From Verrucomicrobia bacterium LP2A (lineage in GTDB: Bacteria > Verrucomicrobiota > Verrucomicrobiia > Methylacidiphilales > Methylacidiphilaceae), in the NCBI GenBank assembly GCA_000526255.1, contig JAFS01000002.1, forward strand, positions 496,001 through 560,000: DNA of 64,000 bases, read 5' to 3'. The notes beneath the pieces were generated by a model. That model made no database searches, was not told the origin of the DNA, and saw only the letters and a program-made list of their open reading frames with translations. Position 1 is the stretch's first letter. Each line of letters begins with the position of its first letter. A program made the position numbers and the translations under genes. Shown in pieces: positions 36,777 to 49,642 of this stretch.

Positions 36777-39700
36777 ATGAGATCTCCCGCTTCTTCTCCG
36801 CATCCTTCCCTCTCCCTCCGCGGGGTGCGGGTCCACAACCTCCGATCGATCGACCTGGACATCCCTCGCGGCAAGCTCACCGTGATCACCGGACCCAGCG
36901 GCTCCGGGAAATCGTCCCTGGCCTTCGATACCCTCTATGCCGAAGGCCAGCGGCGTTATGTGGAAACGTTCTCGCCCTACGTCCGGCAGTTCCTCGAACG
37001 GATGGAAAAGCCGGACTGCGAGGCGATCGAGGGGATCCTCCCGGCGATCGCTGTCGGGCAGAGCGGGGGAGCCGCCACCTCGCGCAGCACGCTCGGAACG
37101 ATGAGCGGCATCCTCGACTACCTCAAGTCGGTCTATGCCCGCGCGGGAAAGCCCGTTTGCCCGAACTGCCAGCTTCCGGTGGAGACGGCTTCCTCCGCCA
37201 CGATCGCCGAGGAGCTCTTGAGGCGGTTTCCGGGCGAAATGATCGGGATCGGCTTCCCGGTCGAATTCCCCGAGGGGACCAGCCGTCGCGAGGCCTTCTT
37301 GTTCCTCCGCTCGCAAGGCCTTCTCCGCGTCTGGGACAAAGATGCCCTCATTCGGACCGACGAGGGACCGGAGGACGGCGCTATCGCGGGCCGACTGCTG
37401 GTCGCCCTGCGGCTCCTGCGCGTCGAGGAGAGGGAGAAGAGCCGTCTCGCCCAGGGTCTCGAGGAAGGGATACGGCTCGGCAAGGGGCGCGTGGCGATCC
37501 GGGCGGGTCGTGCCGAGAGCCGGATCTACACCGACCGCCCGCTCTGTTCCGGCTGCGGACGGGAATTTCCCGCTCCCGCCCCGTCCCTCTTCTCCTTCAA
37601 CAATCCGCAGGGGGCCTGCCCCGCCTGCCATGGTTTCGGCCGGATCGTGGAATTCGACTGGAACCGCGCGGTTCCGGAGCCGAGCCGGTCGGTGCGGGGC
37701 GGCTCGATCCTGCCCTTCCGTTCGGCGTCGCTATCCTGGTGGCAGCGGAAGCTCGAGAGAGCCTGCCTCCGCCGAGGCATTTCGATCGATACCCCTTTTT
37801 TTCAGCTCTCGCCCGCGGAGCAGAAGTTCATCTTGGAGGGCGAGCGGCCGGAGCTCGCGGCAGAAGAGGCGGTGGAGGCCGAGCTCTGGTGCGGGGTACG
37901 CGGCTTTTTTTCCATTCTGGAGAAAAAGGCCTACAAGACGCATGTCCGCGTCTTCCTCTCCCGCTACCGCGATTACCGGACCTGCCCGGAATGCGGCGGC
38001 ACCCGTTTTACGGAGCTTGCGCGCGCCTACCGGCTCCCCTTCCCCTCCGGCGACTTGTCGATCGCCGAGTTCTGTACGCTCCCCGCGCAGGAGGCGCGGC
38101 GGCGGCTCGCTTCGCTTGCGCCCGCGCCGGCCGACCCGGCCACTCGCCGCGCCTGGGAAGAGGTCCTGGTCCGCTTGCACTATCTGGAGGAGATCGGCCT
38201 CGGCTACCTCTCGCTCGACCGCCCCACCCGTTCTCTTTCGGGCGGAGAGATTCGGAGGGCAAACCTGACGATCTGCCTGGGCAACCAGTTGTCCAATACC
38301 CTGTTCGTCCTCGATGAACCGACCATCGGGCTCCATCCGCGGGACGTCGACCGGCTGCTGGGCGTCATGCGCCGCCTGCGCGACCAGGGCAATACGGTCG
38401 TGGCCGTCGAACACGAGGAACGGGTGATCGGGGGTGCTGATTATCTTGTCGAGCTTGGCCCCGGCAGGGGAGCGGAGGGTGGAGAGGTCGTCTTCTGCGG
38501 CTCGCCCGCCGAAATTCTGCGCTCCTCCCGGTCCCTGACGGGCGCCTACCTTTCCGGAAGAAAGAGGGTCCCCGTCCCCGCCGCTCGTCGACCGATCGAC
38601 TCCGCGCGCCGCCTTCACTTGTCCCATATCCGTGTACATAACCTGGAGGATCTCTCCCTCGACCTGCCGCTCGGGCGCTTCGTTGCGGTCACTGGCGTCA
38701 GCGGCTCCGGAAAAAGCAGCCTGGTCCATGACGCCCTTGCCGCAACGCTCCGCTCTGCGATGGCCCATCCGGACAGGCCGACACCCTTTGCCGGAGAAGC
38801 GGCCACGCTCGCCGGATGGGAGGGGATTTCCGCCCTCTACGAAGTCAATCAATCCCCTTTGAGCCGCACCCCTCGCTCGAACCTGGCCCTGTATGTAAAG
38901 GCATGGGAACCCATCCGGAAGCTTTTCGCCCAGACCGAGGACGCCCTCTCCCGCGGCCTGACCCCTCTCTCTTTTTCCTTGAATGCGGGCGACGGCCGAT
39001 GCCCCCATTGCGAGGGATCGGGGGTTGAGCGCGTTGAGATGCAATTCCTCGCGGATGTCTTCCTCCCCTGCCCGATCTGCCAAGGCAAGCGCTTCCAACC
39101 CCATGTCCTTGCCGTCCGGCTCAGCGGCAAGACCTTGGAGGACCTGCTCGCCATGAGCGTGACGGAGGCGATTGGCTTCCTTCGGCCAAAAGAAGGAACT
39201 TCCTCCTCGGAAGAGGGGCTCCGCCGCCAAGGGGTTCGGAGGCTCGGGGGCCTGGAGGAGATCGGTCTCGGCTACCTCCGACTCGGTCATCCCTTGAGCC
39301 AACTCTCCGGAGGGGAGAGTCAACGGCTCAAGGTCTGGAATCATCTGGCCGGCGGGATCCGTGCTGCGGGCGAAGAGGACTGCGCACGAAGCGAAGGCGG
39401 CGGTTCGGCACTCTTTCTTCTCGATGAGCCGACCACGGGCCTCCATGCCGACGACCTTCCGGCTCTGCTCCGCCTCTTCCAACGGATCGTCGACCAGGGC
39501 AATACTCTCGTCGTGGTCGAGCACAACCTCGATGTGATCCGCAGCGCCGACTGGCTGATCGAGCTCGGCCCGGAGGGTGGCGCGGATGGGGGGAAGGTCG
39601 TGGCCGAGGGAGATCCGGAAGCAATCGCCTCCCATCCAAGGAGCCACACGGGCCGCTTCCTCCGCCACCGGCTCGGAGTCGAGGCCCCAAACGCGGCGCC

Positions 39701-42332
39701 TCTCGGGGAAGGCCCTCTCCGGACGCCTCCCGCGAATCCCCTCCTCCCGGATCGCGTCTCGATCCGCAACGCGCACCACCACAACTTGAAGTCGCTCTCC
39801 TTGGATATCGCCCTCGGCAGCTTCACGGTCTTGACGGGAGTCAGCGGCTCCGGAAAGTCGACCCTCGCCTTCGACATCCTTTTCACGGAGGGTCAGCGGC
39901 GCTATCTCGACTGCCTCTCCGGCTACGCGCGCCAGTTCGTCGAACAGATGGAGAAGCCAGCCGTGGAGGCGGTGACCGGCCTGCCCCCGACCGTGGCGAT
40001 CGAGCAGCGACTCACTCGCCCGGGCACCAAGAGCACGGTAGCAACCGTTGCCGAGATCTTCCCTTTTCTTCGCCTCCTCTACGCCCGATTGGGCATTCCC
40101 GCCGACCCAGCAACCGGAGAGCCGGCCAAGCGACAATCCTTGAGCGCACTCCTCTCCGAGGTTCTCCGCCGTCTGGTCCTTCCCCAACGCCTCCTCGCCC
40201 CCGTGGTGCGCGGCCGGAAGGGAAACTACGTGGCTCTCGGCCGCTGGGCAGCCCGCAAGAAGGTTGCCGGCCTGCGCATCGACGGACGGTGGGTCGATCC
40301 CCAGCGTTTTACCGGAACCCATCGCTACCGGACCCATTCGATTGATGTCTGGCTCGGGACCCTTCTGCCCGGCTCCACGGACGCAGAGGTCGAGCAGATG
40401 GTGGCGGAGGCGCTTTCGCTGGGACGGGAGACCATCCTCCTGGTTGATCCGCAAGGGAAGGAGTCGCTGTTGAGCACCCGTTACTTCTGCCCGGGCAGCG
40501 GGCGCGCGTTCGACGAGCTCGACCCGCGCCTCTTCTCTTTCCACTCTCCCCTCGGCTGGTGTCACCACTGCCAGGGAAACGGGACGCTCTTGAGCGGGAC
40601 CGAGGGGGATAGGGAGGAGGCGATCCCCTGTCCGAGCTGCCGCGGGACCCGGCTCAATCCCATCGCCGGCGCCGTGCGCCTTCCCTTGCTCCAGGGAAGG
40701 GATGAGGCCGGGCCAACGCTGCCGGAGATCTGCCGGCTTTCCGTCAAGGAAGCCATCGCCTACTTTTCCCGGCTTCCCGTCGCTGGCCGGGAAGCCCCGG
40801 TGCTTGCCAAGATCCTCCCCGAAGTCTTGGCTCGCCTCCGCTTCCTGGATCAGGCAGGACTCTCCTACCTCGCGCTCGACCGCCCGGCTCCAACCCTCTC
40901 CGCGGGCGAGATGCAACGCATTCACCTCGCCGCCCAGCTCGGCAGCAATCTCCAAGGGGTGCTCTACGTGCTCGACGAACCCACGATCGGGCTTCATGCC
41001 CAAGAGAACGCCCGTCTGCTCGATACGCTGGGCGCACTGCAAGCCAAGGGAAACACCCTGGTCGTCGTCGAACACGACGAGGAGACGATCCGGCGGGCCG
41101 ACCGCGTCATCGACCTGGGACCCGGCGCGGGACGTTTTGGAGGTCAAATCGTCGCCGATGGTCCCTGGACGAGTCTCGCTGGGGAGCCAACCTCGGCGAC
41201 CGGACGGCTTTTGGGAAGCCCTCTTCGCCATCCGCTCCGCGGCCGGCGGCGACCCTGCGGCCGTTCCGGGCCCTGGCTGCGCATCGACGGAATCAAGGCG
41301 CATAACTTGCACGATCTCTCGGTCAGGCTTCCCCTCGGCAGGTTGGTGGTCCTTTGCGGTGTCAGCGGGTCGGGAAAGAGCACGCTTCTCCATCGGGCCC
41401 TCTATCCCGCAGTCTGCCGCTCCGCAGCGAAGAAAAGGTTGGAGGGAACGCGACCATTCCGCCCCTGCTGGAGTGCGATTTCCGGAGCGGATGCGCTCTC
41501 CGCCGCCGTCCTGATCGATCAGACTCCGATCGGCAAGACGAGCCGTTCGACTCCGGCGACCTACCTGGGCGTCTTCGACCAGATTCGCACACTCTTCGCC
41601 TCGCTCCCGACCTCTCGCGAGCGGGGATACGGACCGGGCCGCTTCTCCTACAACACCTCCTCGGGACGATGCCCGGTTTGCCAGGGGAACGGGACGCTCG
41701 CCGTGGAGCTTCCGCTTCTTCCCCTCTTCCGAATCCCCTGCGAAGCCTGCTCAGGAAAGCGCTACAGCCCGCAGACTCTCGAAATCGAATACCGGGAAAA
41801 GACGATCGCCGAGATCCTGGAAATGACCGTGGAAGAAGCCGCTTCCTTCTTTTCGGGTGTTCCCCGACTCCACCAGGCCCTCGAGCTGGTCACCGAAGCG
41901 GGCCTCGGCTACCTCACCCTCGGTCAACCGAGCCCCACCCTTTCGGGCGGGGAGGCGCAGCGGCTCAAGCTCGCCGCCGAGCTCGCGGCATCGCTCGCGC
42001 GCTCCCTCCCGCGCTCCCTCACGCCTGCGCCGACGAGGCGCTGCCTCTATCTTCTGGAAGAGCCGACGATCGGGCTCCATCTGGCCGACGTGGAACGACT
42101 CCTCCGGCTCTGTCAGCGGCTGGTCGACCTCGGCCACACCGTCGTCATCGTCGAGCATCATCTCGACGTGATCGCCGAGGCCGACTACGCAATCGAGCTC
42201 GGCCCGGGAGCGGCGGAATCCGGAGGGAAGATCATCGCCAAAGGCCCGCCCGAGAAAATCGCCCGGCTCAAGAAATCTCCGACCGCCCCTTTCCTGCGTC
42301 CGGTGCTGGAGCGCGCAGACCATTCTGGCTAA
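36777..42332 (+). CDS. uvrA: double-length excinuclease ABC subunit UvrA
   Basis: The 1851-residue protein holds two complete UvrA units in one chain. Four ATP-binding Walker A motifs are visible (near residues 39, 640, 1020 and 1527; [36 protein letters not shown]). Four ABC signatures follow (LSGGE, LSGGE, LSAGE, LSGGE, near residues 485, 843, 1374 and 1722), and CxxC zinc-binding pairs lie in both halves. The normal UvrA is about 940 residues and works as a dimer, so this is a covalent dimer that searches DNA for bulky lesions with UvrB. Similar double UvrAs occur in chlamydiae. The third signature has Ala in place of the first Gly. The gene is unbroken. Confidence 0.96.
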
Positions 42333-42357: not shown

Positions 42358-44040
42358 ATGAAGCCTTTGGGGCAACCTTATCTCATGAAAGAAACCCCGA
42401 GCATCGCGGACTGTCTGGCGAGCCGTCTCCAGAGCGAGGGAATCGAGTATGTATTCGGGGTGCCGGGCGATTACGCCCTGGCCCTCTTCTCCACGTTTCG
42501 GAAACAGGGAATCGAGACGGTCAACACCTGCGATGAGCAGGGCGCGGGCTTTGCGGCCGACGCCTATGCCCGTATCCGCGGCATCGGGGCGGCCTGCGTC
42601 ACCTACTGCGTCGGAGGCCTCAAAATTGCCAACGCGGTGGCGGAAGCCTATGCGGAAAAATCGGCGGTCGTCGTCATCAGCGGCGCTCCGGGCATGGGCG
42701 AGCGTAAGAAAGATCCCCTGCTCCACCACAAGGTGCGCAATTTCGACACTCAGCGGAAGATCTTCGAGGAGATCACGGTGGGGACAACCGTTCTCGACAA
42801 TCCCGACACGGCGGCATCCGAGATCGACCGGCTGCTCGGTCTCGCCCGCCGCTACCACCGGCCCGTCTACATCGAGGTCCCTCGGGATCTTCAGTCGGCT
42901 CCTGCTCGCCGTTCCTCCTTCCCGCGGGAGCCCGAGGAGAGCGATCCGCAAGCGCTGGCGGAAGCCTTGGAGGAAGCCCGTCAGATGCTTCTCTCCTCCC
43001 GCTTCCCGTTGATCCTGGCCGATGTGGAGATCCACCGCTTCGGCCTGCAGAAGGAGCTGGTTGAGCTCACGGAACGAACGGGCATCCCCGTCGCCGCCAC
43101 CCTGCTGGGGAAATCGGTCATTGCGGAGACGCATCCCCATTACGTCGGGGTCTACGAAGGAGCAACCGGACGGGCCGAAGTGAATGATTATGTAGAGGCG
43201 AGCGATTGCCTCCTCCTTTTGGGCGTCTTTCTTACCGACATCACGGTGGGCGGAAGCACTTCTTCGCTCGATATGAGCCGCTGCATCTATGCGACCAGCG
43301 AAAAGCTCTCCATTCGCCACCACTCCTTCGAAGGAGTGCTCCTGGCAGACTTCGTTCGCGGCCTCCGAAAGCTGGACATTCAAAAGAAGGTCTTGCCGAG
43401 CGGCTTCGCGCCCCCGGCCGAGCGGATCGCAAAGACCGCGTTCCGCCCGCAGGATCGGATCACGGTCGTCTCTCTCTTCGCGGAGATCAACCAGATCCTG
43501 AGCTCGGAGATCGTCGTCGTCGCCGATGTCGGCGAGGCGCTCTTCGGCGCTTCGGAGCTGGTCATTCGCGAATCGACCGAGTTCTTGAGCCCCGCCTACT
43601 ACGCCTCCCTCGGGTTCTCGATTCCCGCCTCGCTAGGAGCCGCCCTCGCCAATCCACGATTACGCCCCCTGGTCCTTGTGGGAGACGGAGCATTCCAAAT
43701 GACGGGGGTGGAGCTCTCCACTGCGGTCCGCTTCGGCTTGAGCCCGATCGTGGTCTTGCTCAACAATCGCGGGTACTCCACCGAACGCCACATTCTCGAC
43801 GGTCCCTTCAACGACCTGCTGGAGTGGAACTACTGCCGCATGCCCGAGCTTTTGGGGGCCGGCCATGCCTGCCAGGTCCGGACCAACCAGGAGTTGAAAG
43901 AAACTCTTCAAGCCGCATTGAACCAAAGAGATTCGTATTGGCTCATCGAGGTGCGTTTGAGCCCCCACGACCATTCGCCCGCCCTCGAGAGACTGGCGCA
44001 GCGTCTTTCCCCGGGGAAGCGGGCGGGACAGGCGCGGTAA
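42358..44040 (+). CDS. thiamine-diphosphate-dependent 2-keto acid decarboxylase (pyruvate/indolepyruvate type)
   Basis: The 560-residue protein has the three domains of the pyruvate decarboxylase group. The cofactor-activating glutamate is Glu60 in NTCDEQGAGFAADAYAR. The catalytic His-His pair is in LLHHKV near residue 120, and the diphosphate motif is GDGAFQ...NN at about 441-470. The HH pair separates decarboxylases of this group from acetolactate synthases. It would release CO2 from pyruvate, indolepyruvate or another 2-keto acid, giving an aldehyde. Start may be the ATG at 42358 or that at 42385, which has GGGG upstream. It stands alone between uvrA and the response regulator. Confidence 0.86.
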   Translation: MKPLGQPYLMKETPSIADCLASRLQSEGIEYVFGVPGDYALALFSTFRKQGIETVNTCDEQGAGFAADAYARIRGIGAACVTYCVGGLKIANAVAEAYAEKSAVVVISGAPGMGERKKDPLLHHKVRNFDTQRKIFEEITVGTTVLDNPDTAASEIDRLLGLARRYHRPVYIEVPRDLQSAPARRSSFPREPEESDPQALAEALEEARQMLLSSRFPLILADVEIHRFGLQKELVELTERTGIPVAATLLGKSVIAETHPHYVGVYEGATGRAEVNDYVEASDCLLLLGVFLTDITVGGSTSSLDMSRCIYATSEKLSIRHHSFEGVLLADFVRGLRKLDIQKKVLPSGFAPPAERIAKTAFRPQDRITVVSLFAEINQILSSEIVVVADVGEALFGASELVIRESTEFLSPAYYASLGFSIPASLGAALANPRLRPLVLVGDGAFQMTGVELSTAVRFGLSPIVVLLNNRGYSTERHILDGPFNDLLEWNYCRMPELLGAGHACQVRTNQELKETLQAALNQRDSYWLIEVRLSPHDHSPALERLAQRLSPGKRAGQAR

Positions 44041-44122: not shown

Positions 44123-44809
44123 ATGAGGATCCTGATTGCCGAAGACGATCGAAAGATCTGGAAGCATGTCAAGGCGGCTCTTCAGGCTGAGGGATACACG
44201 GCCGAGGTGGCGGAGGACGGAGAAGAGGCGCTCTGGCTGGCCCAGAACTATCCTTTCGATCTCCTGATCCTCGATCTCATGCTTCCCGAGCGCGATGGCA
44301 TCTCCGTGGTTCGCCAGCTCCGGCGTACTGGATCGCGCCTGCCGGTCCTCTTCCTCACGGGTCGCACCGACGTCGAGGACCGGGTGCGCGGACTCGACGC
44401 GGGTGCCGATGATTACCTGGGCAAGCCCTTCTCCACCCAGGAGCTGCTCGCTCGCGTGCGCGCGCTCCTGCGTCGGCAAAGCCCAACCTTGGCCAGCCGA
44501 TTGCGGTTCGAGGACATCGAGATGGATCTTGTCGCACGTTCCGTGACCCGGGGCGACCAGCGCATCGACCTGACCAACCGGGAGTTTGAGCTCTTGCGGC
44601 TCCTGGTCGAGCACGCCCCCAACCCGGTAAGCAAGGCGCTCATCCTGGAAAAAATCTGGGATCGCTGTTTCGATTCGGAAACCGCGCTGGTGAACGTCCA
44701 CGTCAACCATCTGCGGCAAAAGCTCCACCTCGCGGGGAAGCCGCCCCTGCTCCAGACGATTCGAGGGATCGGGTTTGCGCTGCATGCAGCACCCTCCGCT
44801 TCGCCATGA
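44123..44809 (+). CDS. OmpR/PhoB-family response regulator
   Basis: The 228-residue protein has a receiver domain with the acidic pair EDD at 7-9, the phosphoacceptor Asp51 in LLILDLMLPERDG, Thr in LFLTGR and Lys in YLGKPF near residue 101. A C-terminal winged helix follows (LTNREFELLRLLVEHAPNPVSK, then VNVHVNHLRQKL). It is closest in style to the CusR/QseB/PmrA group. Its stop overlaps the start of the kinase gene (ATGA). A likely target is the tandem repeat at 45838, just downstream of the kinase. Confidence 0.95.
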   Translation: MRILIAEDDRKIWKHVKAALQAEGYTAEVAEDGEEALWLAQNYPFDLLILDLMLPERDGISVVRQLRRTGSRLPVLFLTGRTDVEDRVRGLDAGADDYLGKPFSTQELLARVRALLRRQSPTLASRLRFEDIEMDLVARSVTRGDQRIDLTNREFELLRLLVEHAPNPVSKALILEKIWDRCFDSETALVNVHVNHLRQKLHLAGKPPLLQTIRGIGFALHAAPSASP

Positions 44810-45771
44810 ACCGCCGATGGCTCACGCTGACGGCCGTATTCGGCTTGGTGTTTCTCGGGGTGTCCACGATCTTTCACTGGGCAGCATCGGCGCGCGAGGC
44901 GCGCTTTTTGAAAACGCCGGAGCATCGGCGCGAGCTGGTCCAGTGGGAAGCCGCGTATGCCCTGGCGATGCTCGCCACCTTCCTGGGGGCCGCGCTCTTG
45001 GTGGCGACCGCCGGCAGACGACCTCTCCGAGCGCTCCGACGCCAACTCGCCCTGCTCGACCCGCAGAATCCCTGGCAGCGAGCCCATGCCGATGAGCGGG
45101 ATCCGGAGATCGAAGCCTTGGTCCAGGAAATCAACCGGCTGCTCGATCGCGTCCAAGAAACCTTGGCCGAAGTCGACCGCGCTTCCGCGCGGATGGCTCA
45201 CGAGCTCAAGCTCCCGCTCACCATGGCACGCCTCCGGATGGAGCGAGTGGTCGAACGGGTCGATCCCGCCATCACCGAGCAGATCGAAGTGGAGCTCGAC
45301 CGACTCGGCCATCACCTCGATCGCGCCCTCCTCCTGGCGCGAGCCGAGAAGGGTAGGCTCGTCCTCCGCTGGGAGCGCCTCGACGTCAACGAGCTCTTGG
45401 AAGAACTCCTGGAAGGCTTCCGGCTCCTCGCCGAAGCCGAAGGCCGCACGCTCGAGACGCGCACGGAGCCTGCGGAAGCCGACGCGGACCGGAACTACCT
45501 GAAGCAGATCCTCTATAACTTGGTCTCCAATGCGCTCCACCATGGACGAGGCCCCATTTTCCTCCGCCTCCGCCGCGGTCCCGGTTGCGTCGTGGTCGCC
45601 GTCGGGAACCGGATCAAGCGGAGCGGTGCCCGCGGGTCGGGGCTCGGCGTGGGCAAGCGGATCGTCGCAGCGCTGGTTCAGAGCCATGGCAACATGCGAA
45701 TCGCCTACCGGTCGTACCGCGAGTGGCACTGCACGCGGCTGGTGATCTTCCCGAAGACGCAGCAAGGCTGA
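44806..45771 (+). CDS. sensor histidine kinase with short periplasmic loop and reduced ATPase domain
   Basis: The 321-residue kinase has two transmembrane segments (about residues 8-24 and 50-67), leaving only about 25 residues outside. A HAMP-like linker follows, then the phosphoacceptor His132 in MAHELKLPL and an N-box (QILYNLVSNALHHG, 235-248). The D-x-G-x-G (G1) box expected next is replaced by AVGNRIKRSG, and only the second glycine loop (GSGLGVGKRIV) remains. The tiny sensor loop suggests it reads a membrane-proximal cue. It is coupled to the response regulator by ATGA overlap. Confidence 0.88.
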   Translation: MNRRWLTLTAVFGLVFLGVSTIFHWAASAREARFLKTPEHRRELVQWEAAYALAMLATFLGAALLVATAGRRPLRALRRQLALLDPQNPWQRAHADERDPEIEALVQEINRLLDRVQETLAEVDRASARMAHELKLPLTMARLRMERVVERVDPAITEQIEVELDRLGHHLDRALLLARAEKGRLVLRWERLDVNELLEELLEGFRLLAEAEGRTLETRTEPAEADADRNYLKQILYNLVSNALHHGRGPIFLRLRRGPGCVVVAVGNRIKRSGARGSGLGVGKRIVAALVQSHGNMRIAYRSYREWHCTRLVIFPKTQQG

Positions 45772-45837
45772 GTCGTCCTATTCGTTGCTCTCGCCGCAGT
45801 CCCGCCAATGCGATCGCCGTTCCGTCAGATTCCGTAA

Positions 45838-45878
45838 CTTAAAGAAAAGTTAAACTCCTGCCCCCGCTTTTCTTAAAG
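45838..45878. promoter_or_regulatory. PmrA/QseB-box-like repeats upstream of tonB
   Basis: CTTAAA (45838-45843), five bases, GTTAAA (45849-45854) form a direct repeat with an 11-bp period, the spacing of OmpR-family regulator half-sites and of the PmrA/QseB box. A third CTTAAA lies at 45872-45877, two helical turns further on. The segments 45838-45849 and 45867-45878 are also inverted repeats with 11 of 12 matches. The site lies 67 bp after the kinase gene and 128 bp before tonB. It is the most AT-rich sequence in the region. Confidence 0.55.
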
Positions 45879-46005
45879 GGCGCAGGCATAAGGTAAGGGC
45901 AGTTTGAAAGAGCGCTCAGGGTGATTCTCGCGGGATCCGCCGGCCTGTCGTCGGTCTCCTCCCGGAGGATCGACGCCGAGCGAAAAAAAAGGAAGGAGGC
46001 TCGCC

Positions 46006-46734
46006 ATGATCCTTCTCCAAGAGCGAAAGAGTCAAAACGTCGGGCACCGGCTGGTGAAGCTGCCGATCTTATTCGCCGGTGCGGCGCCGAAGGCGGCCGC
46101 GCCCGCGGGGCCTCGTCCTTCAGGGACCCAGGGAGTTTCTCCGTTCGCGGAAGACCCAGTCGAGCGGCGCGAGCGGACCGCCGGGTGGATTCTCTCTCTG
46201 GCTTTCCATGCGGCCCTGATCCTGGGAGCCGGAATCAGCCTGGCACCCAAGATCAAGCAGGCAGCAACGTCCATGTCCTTCTTCCCTCCAGCGACGGTCG
46301 ATCTCGTGGCGTCTCCGGAGCCGACCACGCAGCCCGTCTCGGAGCCCCTGCCGCCCAAGCCTGGGGACATGGCTCAGGAGGTGGTGCGCAAGGTACAGCC
46401 CAAGAAAGCCATGCTTCCGCCGAAGCCGGCTCCGACGGCCGCCTCGTCCGCCCGACCGACCCGGCTCGCTCAGCCCGACTACCTACGGAATCCCCCTCCG
46501 GTTTACCCCGACGCGGCTCGGCAGAAAAAGGAGCAGGGCGTCGTCTACGTCTGGGTGAAGATTTCGCCAGTGGGTGGAGTGGAAACGGTGCGTGTCGTGC
46601 GCAGCTCGGGCTTTTCGGATCTCGATCAGTCGGCGGAGACTGCCGTCGAGCATTGGCGGTTTCACCCTGCCCTGGCGGGGGTGAAACCCGTCGAATCCCA
46701 AGCGGTCGTCCCGGTTCGCTTCTATCTCCAATGA
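46006..46734 (+). CDS. tonB: TonB-family energy transducer
   Basis: The 242-residue protein has a cytoplasmic N-terminus of about 55 residues, one transmembrane segment (GWILSLAFHAALILGAGI), a Pro/Lys-rich periplasmic spacer (PLPPKPGD, KAMLPPKPAPT) and a C-terminal TonB domain (NPPPVYPDAARQKKEQGVVYVWVKI, then VVRSSGFSDLDQSAETAVEHWRF). It transmits proton-motive force to outer-membrane receptors. The ATG follows GGAAGGAGG. The cytoplasmic extension is longer than usual. ExbB and ExbD are not adjacent. The receptor gene follows after 100 bp. Confidence 0.92.
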   Translation: MILLQERKSQNVGHRLVKLPILFAGAAPKAAAPAGPRPSGTQGVSPFAEDPVERRERTAGWILSLAFHAALILGAGISLAPKIKQAATSMSFFPPATVDLVASPEPTTQPVSEPLPPKPGDMAQEVVRKVQPKKAMLPPKPAPTAASSARPTRLAQPDYLRNPPPVYPDAARQKKEQGVVYVWVKISPVGGVETVRVVRSSGFSDLDQSAETAVEHWRFHPALAGVKPVESQAVVPVRFYLQ

Positions 46735-46834
46735 CGGGGCACAATCTCGGAAGGGCTTCCCGATCCGTAAGAATGGTTGACAAGGAAGCCCTTCCCGGCG
46801 CAGAGAGGCTCCAGCCGTCCAAGGCGCTCGCGTT

Positions 46835-49642
46835 ATGCCTATGCTCCGCTCCTGCCTCGGCATCCTTCTCTCCGCCGTCCTTCCCGGAATCCTCCTCCTC
46901 TTGATGGGCAATCCGGCTCCGGCGCTCGGTGCCGAGCCGGGACCGAGCAGCGTCCCCGCCGAGGAGGCGGCGACTCCTTCCGCGGCAGCCACCCAACCGG
47001 AGAGCGCGCCCTCTCCTTCGACCGGCCAAGCTCCGGCGGCGGCTCCGGAAGGCCCGGAAGCGGGCCCCGAAGCAGCGGCGCCATCCGCAGAAGCGCCGGC
47101 GGCGCCAGCTCCTGGGCCTGCGGCCCCGGCAGCTCCCGCACCTTCCGCGGCCGCTCCTCCCATCACGGTTCCTCAGGGCCCCCTGCCCGGGGGGGAGCTA
47201 CCCCCTGGTTTGGGTCCGGTTCTGGGCGAGGTGGATGTGGGGGCATCCACCCCTTACGAGTCGGTCGAGCCAGCCGAGCAGCCGGTCGGGGTGCTCGGCC
47301 CCGAGATGAGCGTCATGGAGACCCCGCGAACGGTTCAAATCGTGAACAAGGAGGAGATTCAGACCACCAACGCCCAGTCGGTCAATGATCTGGCCGCCTT
47401 CGTCCCGGGAATCAATCCGACGCAGATGACGGGCAGCCCCGTATCGGAACCGGTGATGCGGGGTCTTCCGGGGACAGCTTACCGCAACGGCATGCTCGTC
47501 GGGTTCAGCCAGTCCGCTCAATGGGGCCCGCTCATGAACATGAACGCCTACGACAACCTCGACGTCGTCACGGGCCCCGTCAGCATCGTCTTTGGTCCTC
47601 AAGAGATGGCCGGGGGGTTCGCCAACGAGGTCACCAAGCAGCCCTATTTCGACAAATTTCGGGGGACCGCGAGCTACACGGGCGGCATGTACAGCACCAA
47701 CTTCTGGAACATCGACATCGGGGGGCCGATCATCAAGGACAAGTTGGCCTACCGGGTCGACTACTTCGGGCAGGACGGCTATGCTCCCTACAACTACTAT
47801 GATGGAGCCTACCTCCAGCGGCAGTGCGCCCTTTTGGTACTCTCCGCCAAGCCCTACGACAACCTGACGATCGACTTCAACACCGAGTTCGACGTCAATC
47901 ATCTCAACACGGTGGCGGGCATCAACCGTCCCGACCAGGCCCTGATCAGCGACGGCCTCTATCAGACCGGCTCGCTCGCCGGATGGTACGGCCCTCCAGG
48001 AGTCCTCCATCCCGGGCTCGGGAGTGCTCCGCCGGGGTCGGGCTATGCGATGAACTGGGGTCCGCAGGAGCCGATCAGCCGCCGTTCCAACCTCTTCGCC
48101 AATTCCGAGAACTCAACCCAGCAGCTCTACTATGTCGCCCAGGCGATCGAGACGCTCAAGATCGATGAGGGCCTCTCGCTCGTGAACAACTCGATGTTCG
48201 AATACTTCAGCAGCTACGTCGATCAGGCCATCCCCTCGACGTTCTGGGCGGTGTTGCCGGCGGGATACGACTTCGACGACCGGCTCGAGCTCCGCGCCTC
48301 CTTCGACACCCCGATCGGAAGGAGCGGCCAGCCCGCGGCCTCCAGCGACTCGAGCGCAGAAGCCGAGAAGGGGCTCGGGGCGAAGCTCCACCACACGATC
48401 GATACGGGCTTGGAATTCCGTTTTTTCAGCGACACCGAGTATTCGGGAGCCTGGCACTCGCCGACGAACATCTGGAACATGACGCAACCCCTCACCTCGA
48501 GGGACTACTCTCCGCTGATCCCCTTTTCTACGGCGACGGCGGCTCCCTACAGCAATCCCTACCTGACCGATATTCCGGTCCCCGGCTATCCGGGCGCCTA
48601 CTACAACGTCTTCAACTACCTCTCGACCTCGGACACCTTTTACGAGCTTTCGCCCTTCTACCAGCACAAGGTCGACTTCACCGATCAGTGGAGCCTCCTT
48701 CTCTCGGGGAGGATGAATGCCTACTTCATCCAGGCTTCCCCGCCACCGGGAACCCCAGGCGACATTTCGGCGGCGGCCCCCTCTTTTGGGCTCCCGACCT
48801 TGACGTCGACCTCGATGAGCATGGTCCAGCCCGAAGTGTCGATCAGTCCCAGCTACAAGCCCTTTCCGTGGATGACCAACTACTTCACCTTCTTCTACGG
48901 ACAGACCACCCTGCTTTCCCAGTTCGGGAGCTTCGGCCCCTCCTATCCCTCCTCCTACTACCATCAGAACAATTTTCTCTACGAGCTGGGAACCAAGCTC
49001 AACCTTCTCCACGACCATCTCTTCCTGGGCTTTTCCGCCTACATGCAAAGCGGATACATTCCAGCGCAGGTCATCCCCGGGGGTCCGATCGCAACCGCCC
49101 AAGCGGACATCAGCGGGATTCAGCTCAACGGCAGCTACCAGCCCAACCGGAACTTCTGGCTCAACTTCGGCTATGCCTACATCGCCGCACAAGAGCAGTG
49201 GGCCGGACTCTCCCAGGGTCCCTTGGCGATGCAGCCCTACTCCACCTCCGTGGCGCGTCAATACGATCTGCCGACCGATCCGTTGGTCAACATGGCGGCA
49301 GCCAATTACCAGTTCATCGGGTTTCCGACCAACTACGGCAACCTGATGGCGACCTACAAGTTCAACAACGGCTTCGGCGTATCCCTCTGGGGGATCACCG
49401 AGAGCGGCAATTACATCTTCTACACCTATTCGACCCGGATTCCGACTTGGTACACCTTGAACGCCCGCCTCTTCTATGCCACCAAGCGGTGGGAAGCGAG
49501 CCTCTACGTCTACAACCTGACCAACGAGGAGTACTGGCTTCCCGGAGCTCCCGGTTTCAGCAATGCGCGGTTCATGAACTACGACTATATCGTTGCGCAG
49601 CTCCCCTTCTGGATCCAAGGCACGGTCCAGATCAACTTTTGA
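46835..49642 (+). CDS. TonB-dependent outer-membrane receptor with Ala/Pro-rich N-terminal linker
   Basis: The 935-residue protein has a signal peptide ending near residue 32. An unusual low-complexity segment of about 80 residues, mostly Ala, Pro, Glu and Gly, precedes the plug domain (PRTVQIVNKEEIQTTNAQSV, the VMRGLPGT segment, VVTGPVSIVFGP). A long beta-barrel ends in aromatic QGTVQINF, the outer-membrane insertion signal. Plug and barrel resemble siderophore receptors; the ligand is unknown. No separate signalling domain is present. It is probably energised by the adjacent TonB and controlled by the upstream two-component system. Confidence 0.92.
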   Translation: MPMLRSCLGILLSAVLPGILLLLMGNPAPALGAEPGPSSVPAEEAATPSAAATQPESAPSPSTGQAPAAAPEGPEAGPEAAAPSAEAPAAPAPGPAAPAAPAPSAAAPPITVPQGPLPGGELPPGLGPVLGEVDVGASTPYESVEPAEQPVGVLGPEMSVMETPRTVQIVNKEEIQTTNAQSVNDLAAFVPGINPTQMTGSPVSEPVMRGLPGTAYRNGMLVGFSQSAQWGPLMNMNAYDNLDVVTGPVSIVFGPQEMAGGFANEVTKQPYFDKFRGTASYTGGMYSTNFWNIDIGGPIIKDKLAYRVDYFGQDGYAPYNYYDGAYLQRQCALLVLSAKPYDNLTIDFNTEFDVNHLNTVAGINRPDQALISDGLYQTGSLAGWYGPPGVLHPGLGSAPPGSGYAMNWGPQEPISRRSNLFANSENSTQQLYYVAQAIETLKIDEGLSLVNNSMFEYFSSYVDQAIPSTFWAVLPAGYDFDDRLELRASFDTPIGRSGQPAASSDSSAEAEKGLGAKLHHTIDTGLEFRFFSDTEYSGAWHSPTNIWNMTQPLTSRDYSPLIPFSTATAAPYSNPYLTDIPVPGYPGAYYNVFNYLSTSDTFYELSPFYQHKVDFTDQWSLLLSGRMNAYFIQASPPPGTPGDISAAAPSFGLPTLTSTSMSMVQPEVSISPSYKPFPWMTNYFTFFYGQTTLLSQFGSFGPSYPSSYYHQNNFLYELGTKLNLLHDHLFLGFSAYMQSGYIPAQVIPGGPIATAQADISGIQLNGSYQPNRNFWLNFGYAYIAAQEQWAGLSQGPLAMQPYSTSVARQYDLPTDPLVNMAAANYQFIGFPTNYGNLMATYKFNNGFGVSLWGITESGNYIFYTYSTRIPTWYTLNARLFYATKRWEASLYVYNLTNEEYWLPGAPGFSNARFMNYDYIVAQLPFWIQGTVQINF

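Follow-up and report, generated by a model that had tools for sequence, protein, structure and literature searches.

The window analysed here is the whole 64,000-nucleotide stretch, and the locus that we describe lies in its right-hand part, where a two-component system is followed by a tonB gene and by a gene for a TonB-dependent receptor. The features on which the argument depends are the following:

42358-44040, + strand: indolepyruvate-decarboxylase-like gene
44123-44809, + strand: response regulator of the OmpR/PhoB class (Response_reg and Trans_reg_C domains), nearest to the CusR/CzcR/SilR heavy-metal regulators
44806-45771, + strand: sensor histidine kinase, 321 aa, two transmembrane (TM) helices, no large sensor domain
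44881-44955, + strand: codons of the extracytoplasmic kinase loop of about 25 residues (residues 26-50)
45838-45843, + strand: half-site 1 (CTTAAA) of the putative regulator box
45849-45854, + strand: half-site 2 (GTTAAA), starting 11 bp past site 1 in all 11 genomes
45872-45877, + strand: half-site 3 (CTTAAA), 23 bp (host genus) or 22 bp (sister genus) past site 2
45889-45894, + strand: putative -10 element (TAAGGT), lacking a good -35 at 17 bp
45913-45982, + strand: possible tonB leader RNA hairpin, conserved in the genus
46006-46734, + strand: tonB (TonB_C domain), with a cytoplasmic N-terminal extension before the TM helix
46749-46795, + strand: perfect 12-nt inverted repeat GGAAGGGCTTCC/GGAAGCCCTTCC in the tonB-receptor gap (arms 46749-46760 and 46784-46795)
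46835-49642, + strand: TonB-dependent receptor, 935 aa, with a plug domain

The genes of a conserved locus

The regulator and kinase reading frames overlap by 4 nt (ATGA), while 234 bp separate the kinase from tonB and 100 bp separate tonB from the receptor. The initial annotation had read a coupled regulator and kinase followed on one strand by tonB and a receptor, and both the coordinates and the Pfam and NCBIfam identities agree with it. Further upstream, the window encodes at 36777-42332 a single UvrA-like protein of 1851 aa with four ATP-binding regions, conserved in both genera, which is apparently two UvrA copies fused within one gene.

The regulator matches PF00072 (3.5e-30) and PF00486 (4.1e-21) in Pfam, which places it in the OmpR/PhoB class of two-component regulators. 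In the kinase, HisKA and HATPase_c are detected slightly under the Pfam cut-offs, and the alignment shows an H-box (AHELKLPLT) and an N-box; a VxN motif replaces the DxG box, as it also does in the L074 homologue. Most kinases carry DxG, and VxN is a frequent form of this catalytic box in CusS-like kinases. The first-ranking models are those of heavy-metal systems, TIGR01387 (CusR/CzcR/SilR) for the regulator at 223.6 bits and TIGR01386 for the kinase at 98.4 bits, but both proteins score under the curated cut-offs (279.2 and 292.55, respectively) and so fall outside the CusRS/CzcRS families proper. The PmrA equivalog NF007928 gives the regulator 182.6 bits, short of its cut-off of 330, and QseB gives 143.4. 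The named relatives of the kinase come from Methylacidimicrobium tartarophylax, from Methylacidiphilaceae MAGs and from Methylacidiphilum sp. Yel, which makes the host a relative of the verrucomicrobial methanotrophs, in all likelihood one of the Methylacidimicrobium type.

When the window genes were searched by tBLASTn, the order decarboxylase-regulator-kinase-tonB-receptor was found in all 11 genomes with a contiguous stretch, namely 6 of the Methylacidimicrobium type (host included) and 5 of the Methylacidiphilum type, in one of which the contig stops within the receptor gene. In a seventh genome of the host genus (G003) the contig stops within the kinase, so that its kinase-tonB gap is absent from the data, and no close kinase was found in G008, the family's third genus. 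These genomes are not independent, the kinases of G000 and G004 being 96% identical, and the 11 amount to fewer independent events, perhaps to three lineages for one genus and two for its sister. Between the genera, identity is 66-72% for the receptor, about 72% for the regulator and about 47% for both tonB and the kinase, and the recognition-helix region of the regulator is near-identical across 12 genomes of the two genera. In four Methylacidiphilum-type genomes (L027, L029, L030 and L031) the receptor gene is tandemly duplicated, and one promoter may there serve two receptors, possibly differing in substrate. This gene arrangement is new for the Methylacidiphilaceae; its principle is already known.

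The putative promoter region of tonB

The kinase-tonB gap holds at 45838-45877 the motif that had been noticed at the outset, CTTAAA-N5-GTTAAA with a third CTTAAA. It had been called PmrA/QseB-like, a label that suits the appearance of the box (PMC3973317) and does not extend to the membership of the regulator, which scores best with CusR/CzcR/SilR. By the window alone the box is unimpressive, 0.37 matches being expected at up to 2 mismatches, and the 19-base box at up to 3 mismatches matches the host genome no more often than its reversed control. The exact form occurs once in the 2.47-Mb genome; the search for further copies that had been proposed thus returned the locus and nothing else, and a looser form of the box gave no additional copy in the host genome either. 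Each GC-rich sister genome contains the 19-mer a single time when at most 1 mismatch is allowed, and this copy invariably falls between the kinase and tonB. Autoregulation through the box was rejected, as a tolerance of 3 mismatches uncovered no further copy in the host genome and none was seen before the regulator gene; the gaps read upstream of receptor genes have no copy either.

It is the comparison between genera that gives the box its weight. It is the top cross-genus local match of the kinase-tonB gap, and the sole strong one; in three of four genome pairs none of 200 dinucleotide shuffles reached this match, and 2 of 200 did in the fourth. Three TTAAA-type half-sites are found on both sides. 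The GC-rich genus spaces them by 11 and 23 bp, the AT-rich one by 11 and 22 bp, and every one of the 11 genomes has a TAnnnT whose offset from the first base of site 3 is exactly 17. Among the 32 bases from site 3, the only invariant columns in the 11 genomes are TTAAA (offsets 1-5), T17, A18 and T22. Judged on alignments, then, the box is a strong cross-species footprint, though a modest one in a single genome. The earlier proposal that these genes form one regulated module appears well supported by the two-genus synteny together with this single-copy promoter footprint.

The reading that we prefer, with a probability of roughly 0.58, is that of a dedicated unit in which the kinase signals to the regulator, and the regulator binds the TTAAA sites and activates a tonB-receptor operon. 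With its helical hairpin, about 25 residues long, the kinase would sense a signal on the outer side of the inner membrane. It would then phosphorylate the regulator, which in its phosphorylated form would bind the head-to-tail half-sites (1-2 and 3) upstream of tonB. Site 3, which ends 11 bp before the -10 element, would stand in for the -35, and tonB and the receptor would be switched on. A simple scan of the + strand of the gap gave no consensus sigma-70 promoter, and a slot that lacks a consensus -35 would fit dependence on an activator. The binding of the regulator to the box and the direction of control are presumed steps, as is the holding of a metal or chelate by H24, E31, E39, H40, E43 and E48 of the kinase.

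The placement of site 3 counts against activation, since it falls in the interval between the customary -35 and -10 positions and repression would suit it as well. The main rival, which we consider unlikely, is accordingly that the phosphorylated regulator represses, site 3 in the promoter spacer blocking the polymerase until the signal changes. With a start placed 7 nt past the -10, site 3 would cover roughly -29 to -24, and there is a precedent in VgrR, which represses the receptor gene tdvA (PMC5231390). Yet a promoter without a consensus -35 would be weak if it lacked an activator, and the distance from the proximal half-site to the -10 suits an activator.

It could also be that the AT-rich block is an UP element plus a -10, or the site of another regulator such as Fur, and that the two-component system controls something else. 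AT-rich tracts are common upstream of promoters, and the orthologous pair does exist elsewhere without tonB. We nonetheless rate this as improbable, because three helically spaced half-sites are kept across genera of very different GC content, because there is one copy per genome despite the many promoters and receptors, unlike what an UP element or a Fur box would give, and because the recognition region of the regulator is conserved along with the box. Lastly, 45838-45849 and 45867-45878 can be read as the 12-nt arms, 92% complementary in the host genome, of an inverted repeat that spans sites 1 and 3 and would be a palindromic operator or an RNA hairpin, but this is very improbable, as transcription probably starts downstream of the block and as the third site of the sister genus is a direct copy, AATTAAACT occurring there twice in the same orientation, 22 bp apart, in 4 of 5 genomes, for which reason the direct-repeat reading is preferred.

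Downstream of the putative -10 element, a long leader hairpin can be folded in all six genomes of the host genus, with three pairs altered on both sides; this number of doubly changed pairs was matched by 5 of 500 shuffles, but also by one slid control. With six related sequences, the conserved tonB leader hairpin is suggestive only. The leader matched no known riboswitch or RNA family in Rfam, and a leader peptide starting at the conserved GTG at 45921 was dismissed, indels breaking the frame between species. In the gap between tonB and the receptor, the arms of the inverted repeat vary little within the genus and the adjacent AGAATGGTTGACAAGGA is nearly invariant; no other full copy was found among the genomes searched, and no T-run is present. 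It is possibly an element of RNA processing, of RNA stability or of a promoter. Because a 100-bp gap with so strong an inverted repeat intervenes, the co-transcription of tonB and the receptor within the proposed operon is uncertain.

The kinase loop, the receptor and their possible ligands

The initial annotation had given the kinase only about 25 residues outside the membrane, and this figure is reproduced by hydropathy, with two TM segments and residues 26 to 50, approximately, outside. A structure predicted from 11 sequences (mean pLDDT 71, hence a moderate prediction) shows helices at 3-32 and 38-71 that form a hairpin with a five-residue turn. Two TM segments, about 25 outside residues or fewer and the lack of any other sensor domain characterize the intramembrane-sensing kinases, an architecture that this protein shares at a borderline length. 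Its best conserved 25-aa window between genera is that of residues 31-55, at 78% against 47% for the whole kinase, the HisKA region reaching 53%, and H24, E31, E39, H40, E43, W47 and E48 are invariant between genera. As a spacer would not need such conservation, the loop seems to be more than that. An ExxE motif is absent from the loop, those of the kinase being confined to cytoplasmic residues 158-224.

From these sequence features, a signal near the membrane, read by a small conserved loop, is a reasonable proposal. The more specific signals that have been put forward (pH, lipid-bound metal, copper, lanthanide) are guesses. A metal or a metal chelate would be the likeliest, considering the conserved acids and histidines and the fact that heavy-metal models are the best ones for both proteins, but we hold this with a confidence that stays clearly on the doubtful side.

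The loop also bears on the origin of the unit. When 286 genomes of the class were searched by alignment, relatives of the kinase (E <= 1e-25) were found in 26 further genomes outside the family; the adjoining regulator is 52-59% identical in the 20 loci examined, and none of these 20 showed a tonB or receptor gene in the 1.5 kb searched on either side. Where the start could be read, the outside part of the kinase is longer in these relatives, with roughly 45-50 residues by eye. Since the class relatives have longer sensors and no nearby tonB, the coupling to tonB and the shortening of the sensor are probably derived in the Methylacidiphilaceae, a view that is drawn from distribution rather than from a tree; for the same lack of a nearby tonB in class orthologues, the ancestral target of the pair may be a different one, which weighs against the preferred reading. 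The orthologous pair is widespread in the class (L106-L124 and L074); its longer sensor, of which DWILHGSYSDTEVQEILGEL is an example, is conserved, and no tonB lies nearby.

On the side of the receptor, matches to siderophore-receptor models and to the CntO/FoxA plug are weak: TIGR01783 (TonB-siderophore receptor) gives 59.7 bits for a cut-off of 223.5 and covers the plug and the start of the barrel only, and the predicted structure has a mean pLDDT of 24.6. A lanthanide link by location is unsupported, for the xoxF copies are on contig C1 and the locus on C2, although a receptor with a lanthanide function may also lie apart from xoxF or xoxGJ. The host has three genes for PQQ alcohol dehydrogenases of the xoxF type (G000:C1:398108, 466521 and 711477), and the sisters searched in the genus have two. 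Another receptor gene (C1:473273) lies near one of these three host copies, at about 5 kb. In M. thermophilum AP8, cirA (MTHMO_v1_1697) is the proposed lanthanide receptor, with a locus tag near those of xoxJ and xoxG (1701 and 1702) (PMC7907005), and this closeness of tags suggests that cirA corresponds to the other, xoxF-near receptor.

Relation to known systems and significance

The kinases of the CusRS/CzcRS/CopRS systems (TIGR01387/TIGR01386) carry a large metal-binding sensor domain, which is missing here, and their neighbours are efflux genes whereas ours are uptake genes, even if their models are the top ones for both proteins. PmrB, for its part, has a small sensor between two TM helices. 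The PmrA box is CTTAAG-N5-NTTAAT, with direct TTAA repeats at an 11-bp pitch, and PmrA is a relative of OmpR and PhoB (PMC3973317). Our locus resembles the PmrA-PmrB (BasRS) system in the CTTAA-type core, the 5-bp gap and the 11-bp pitch of its putative box, with a different sixth base; it differs in that its regulator fits CusR/CzcR better, in that its loop has no ExxE, and in that its predicted target is a tonB-receptor unit rather than lipid A modification.

By its organization, the locus resembles the systems devoted to a TonB-dependent receptor gene, PfeR-PfeS-PfeA and PirRS-PirA. In Pseudomonas aeruginosa, PfeRS activates the receptor gene pfeA, and the PfeR sites are described as pairs of palindromes (PMC10654771), whereas our box is a tandem TTAAA; PfeS is proposed to detect the ferric siderophore once it has been imported into the periplasm, where our kinase exposes so few residues, and tonB is inside the predicted target unit here, unlike in PfeRS-PfeA. 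Two-component control of a receptor gene is also the case of VgrR-VgrS (ColRS) and tdvA in Xanthomonas campestris, the periplasmic part of VgrS sensing metal (PMC5231390). VgrS does so by binding Fe3+ through an ExxE that our loop does not have, and VgrR, a repressor in that system, affects hundreds of genes whereas we find one conserved box per genome.

A parallel for the sensor is offered by BceS and NsaS, which have two TM helices and almost no outside domain, their genes lying beside the transporter that they control (PMC8534201). BceS requires its ABC transporter as the sensor; in our kinase the loop is strongly conserved. One may speculate that, rather than binding a free ligand, the kinase touches TonB with its hairpin and TM helices, or reaches the loaded receptor by way of TonB, and so reads the state of the uptake machinery; the odds are long, but if true, the kinase would be a flux sensor of the Bce kind, here in a TonB system of a Gram-negative bacterium, setting the level of its own tonB and receptor.

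Our literature search found no description of the locus and no published expression data. It represents a lineage-specific addition to a known type, set apart by its minimal sensor, by the one target predicted for it and by the inclusion of tonB in the target unit. Metals are a requirement of the verrucomicrobial methanotrophs, which must obtain them at very low pH by mechanisms that are still unsettled, as has been stated for lanthanides (PMC7907005). A dedicated pair with one predicted target and a defined box offers a compact system in which the substrate of a conserved receptor can be approached by experiment, and the 25-residue sensor a simple model for how a minimal membrane-proximal sensor works.
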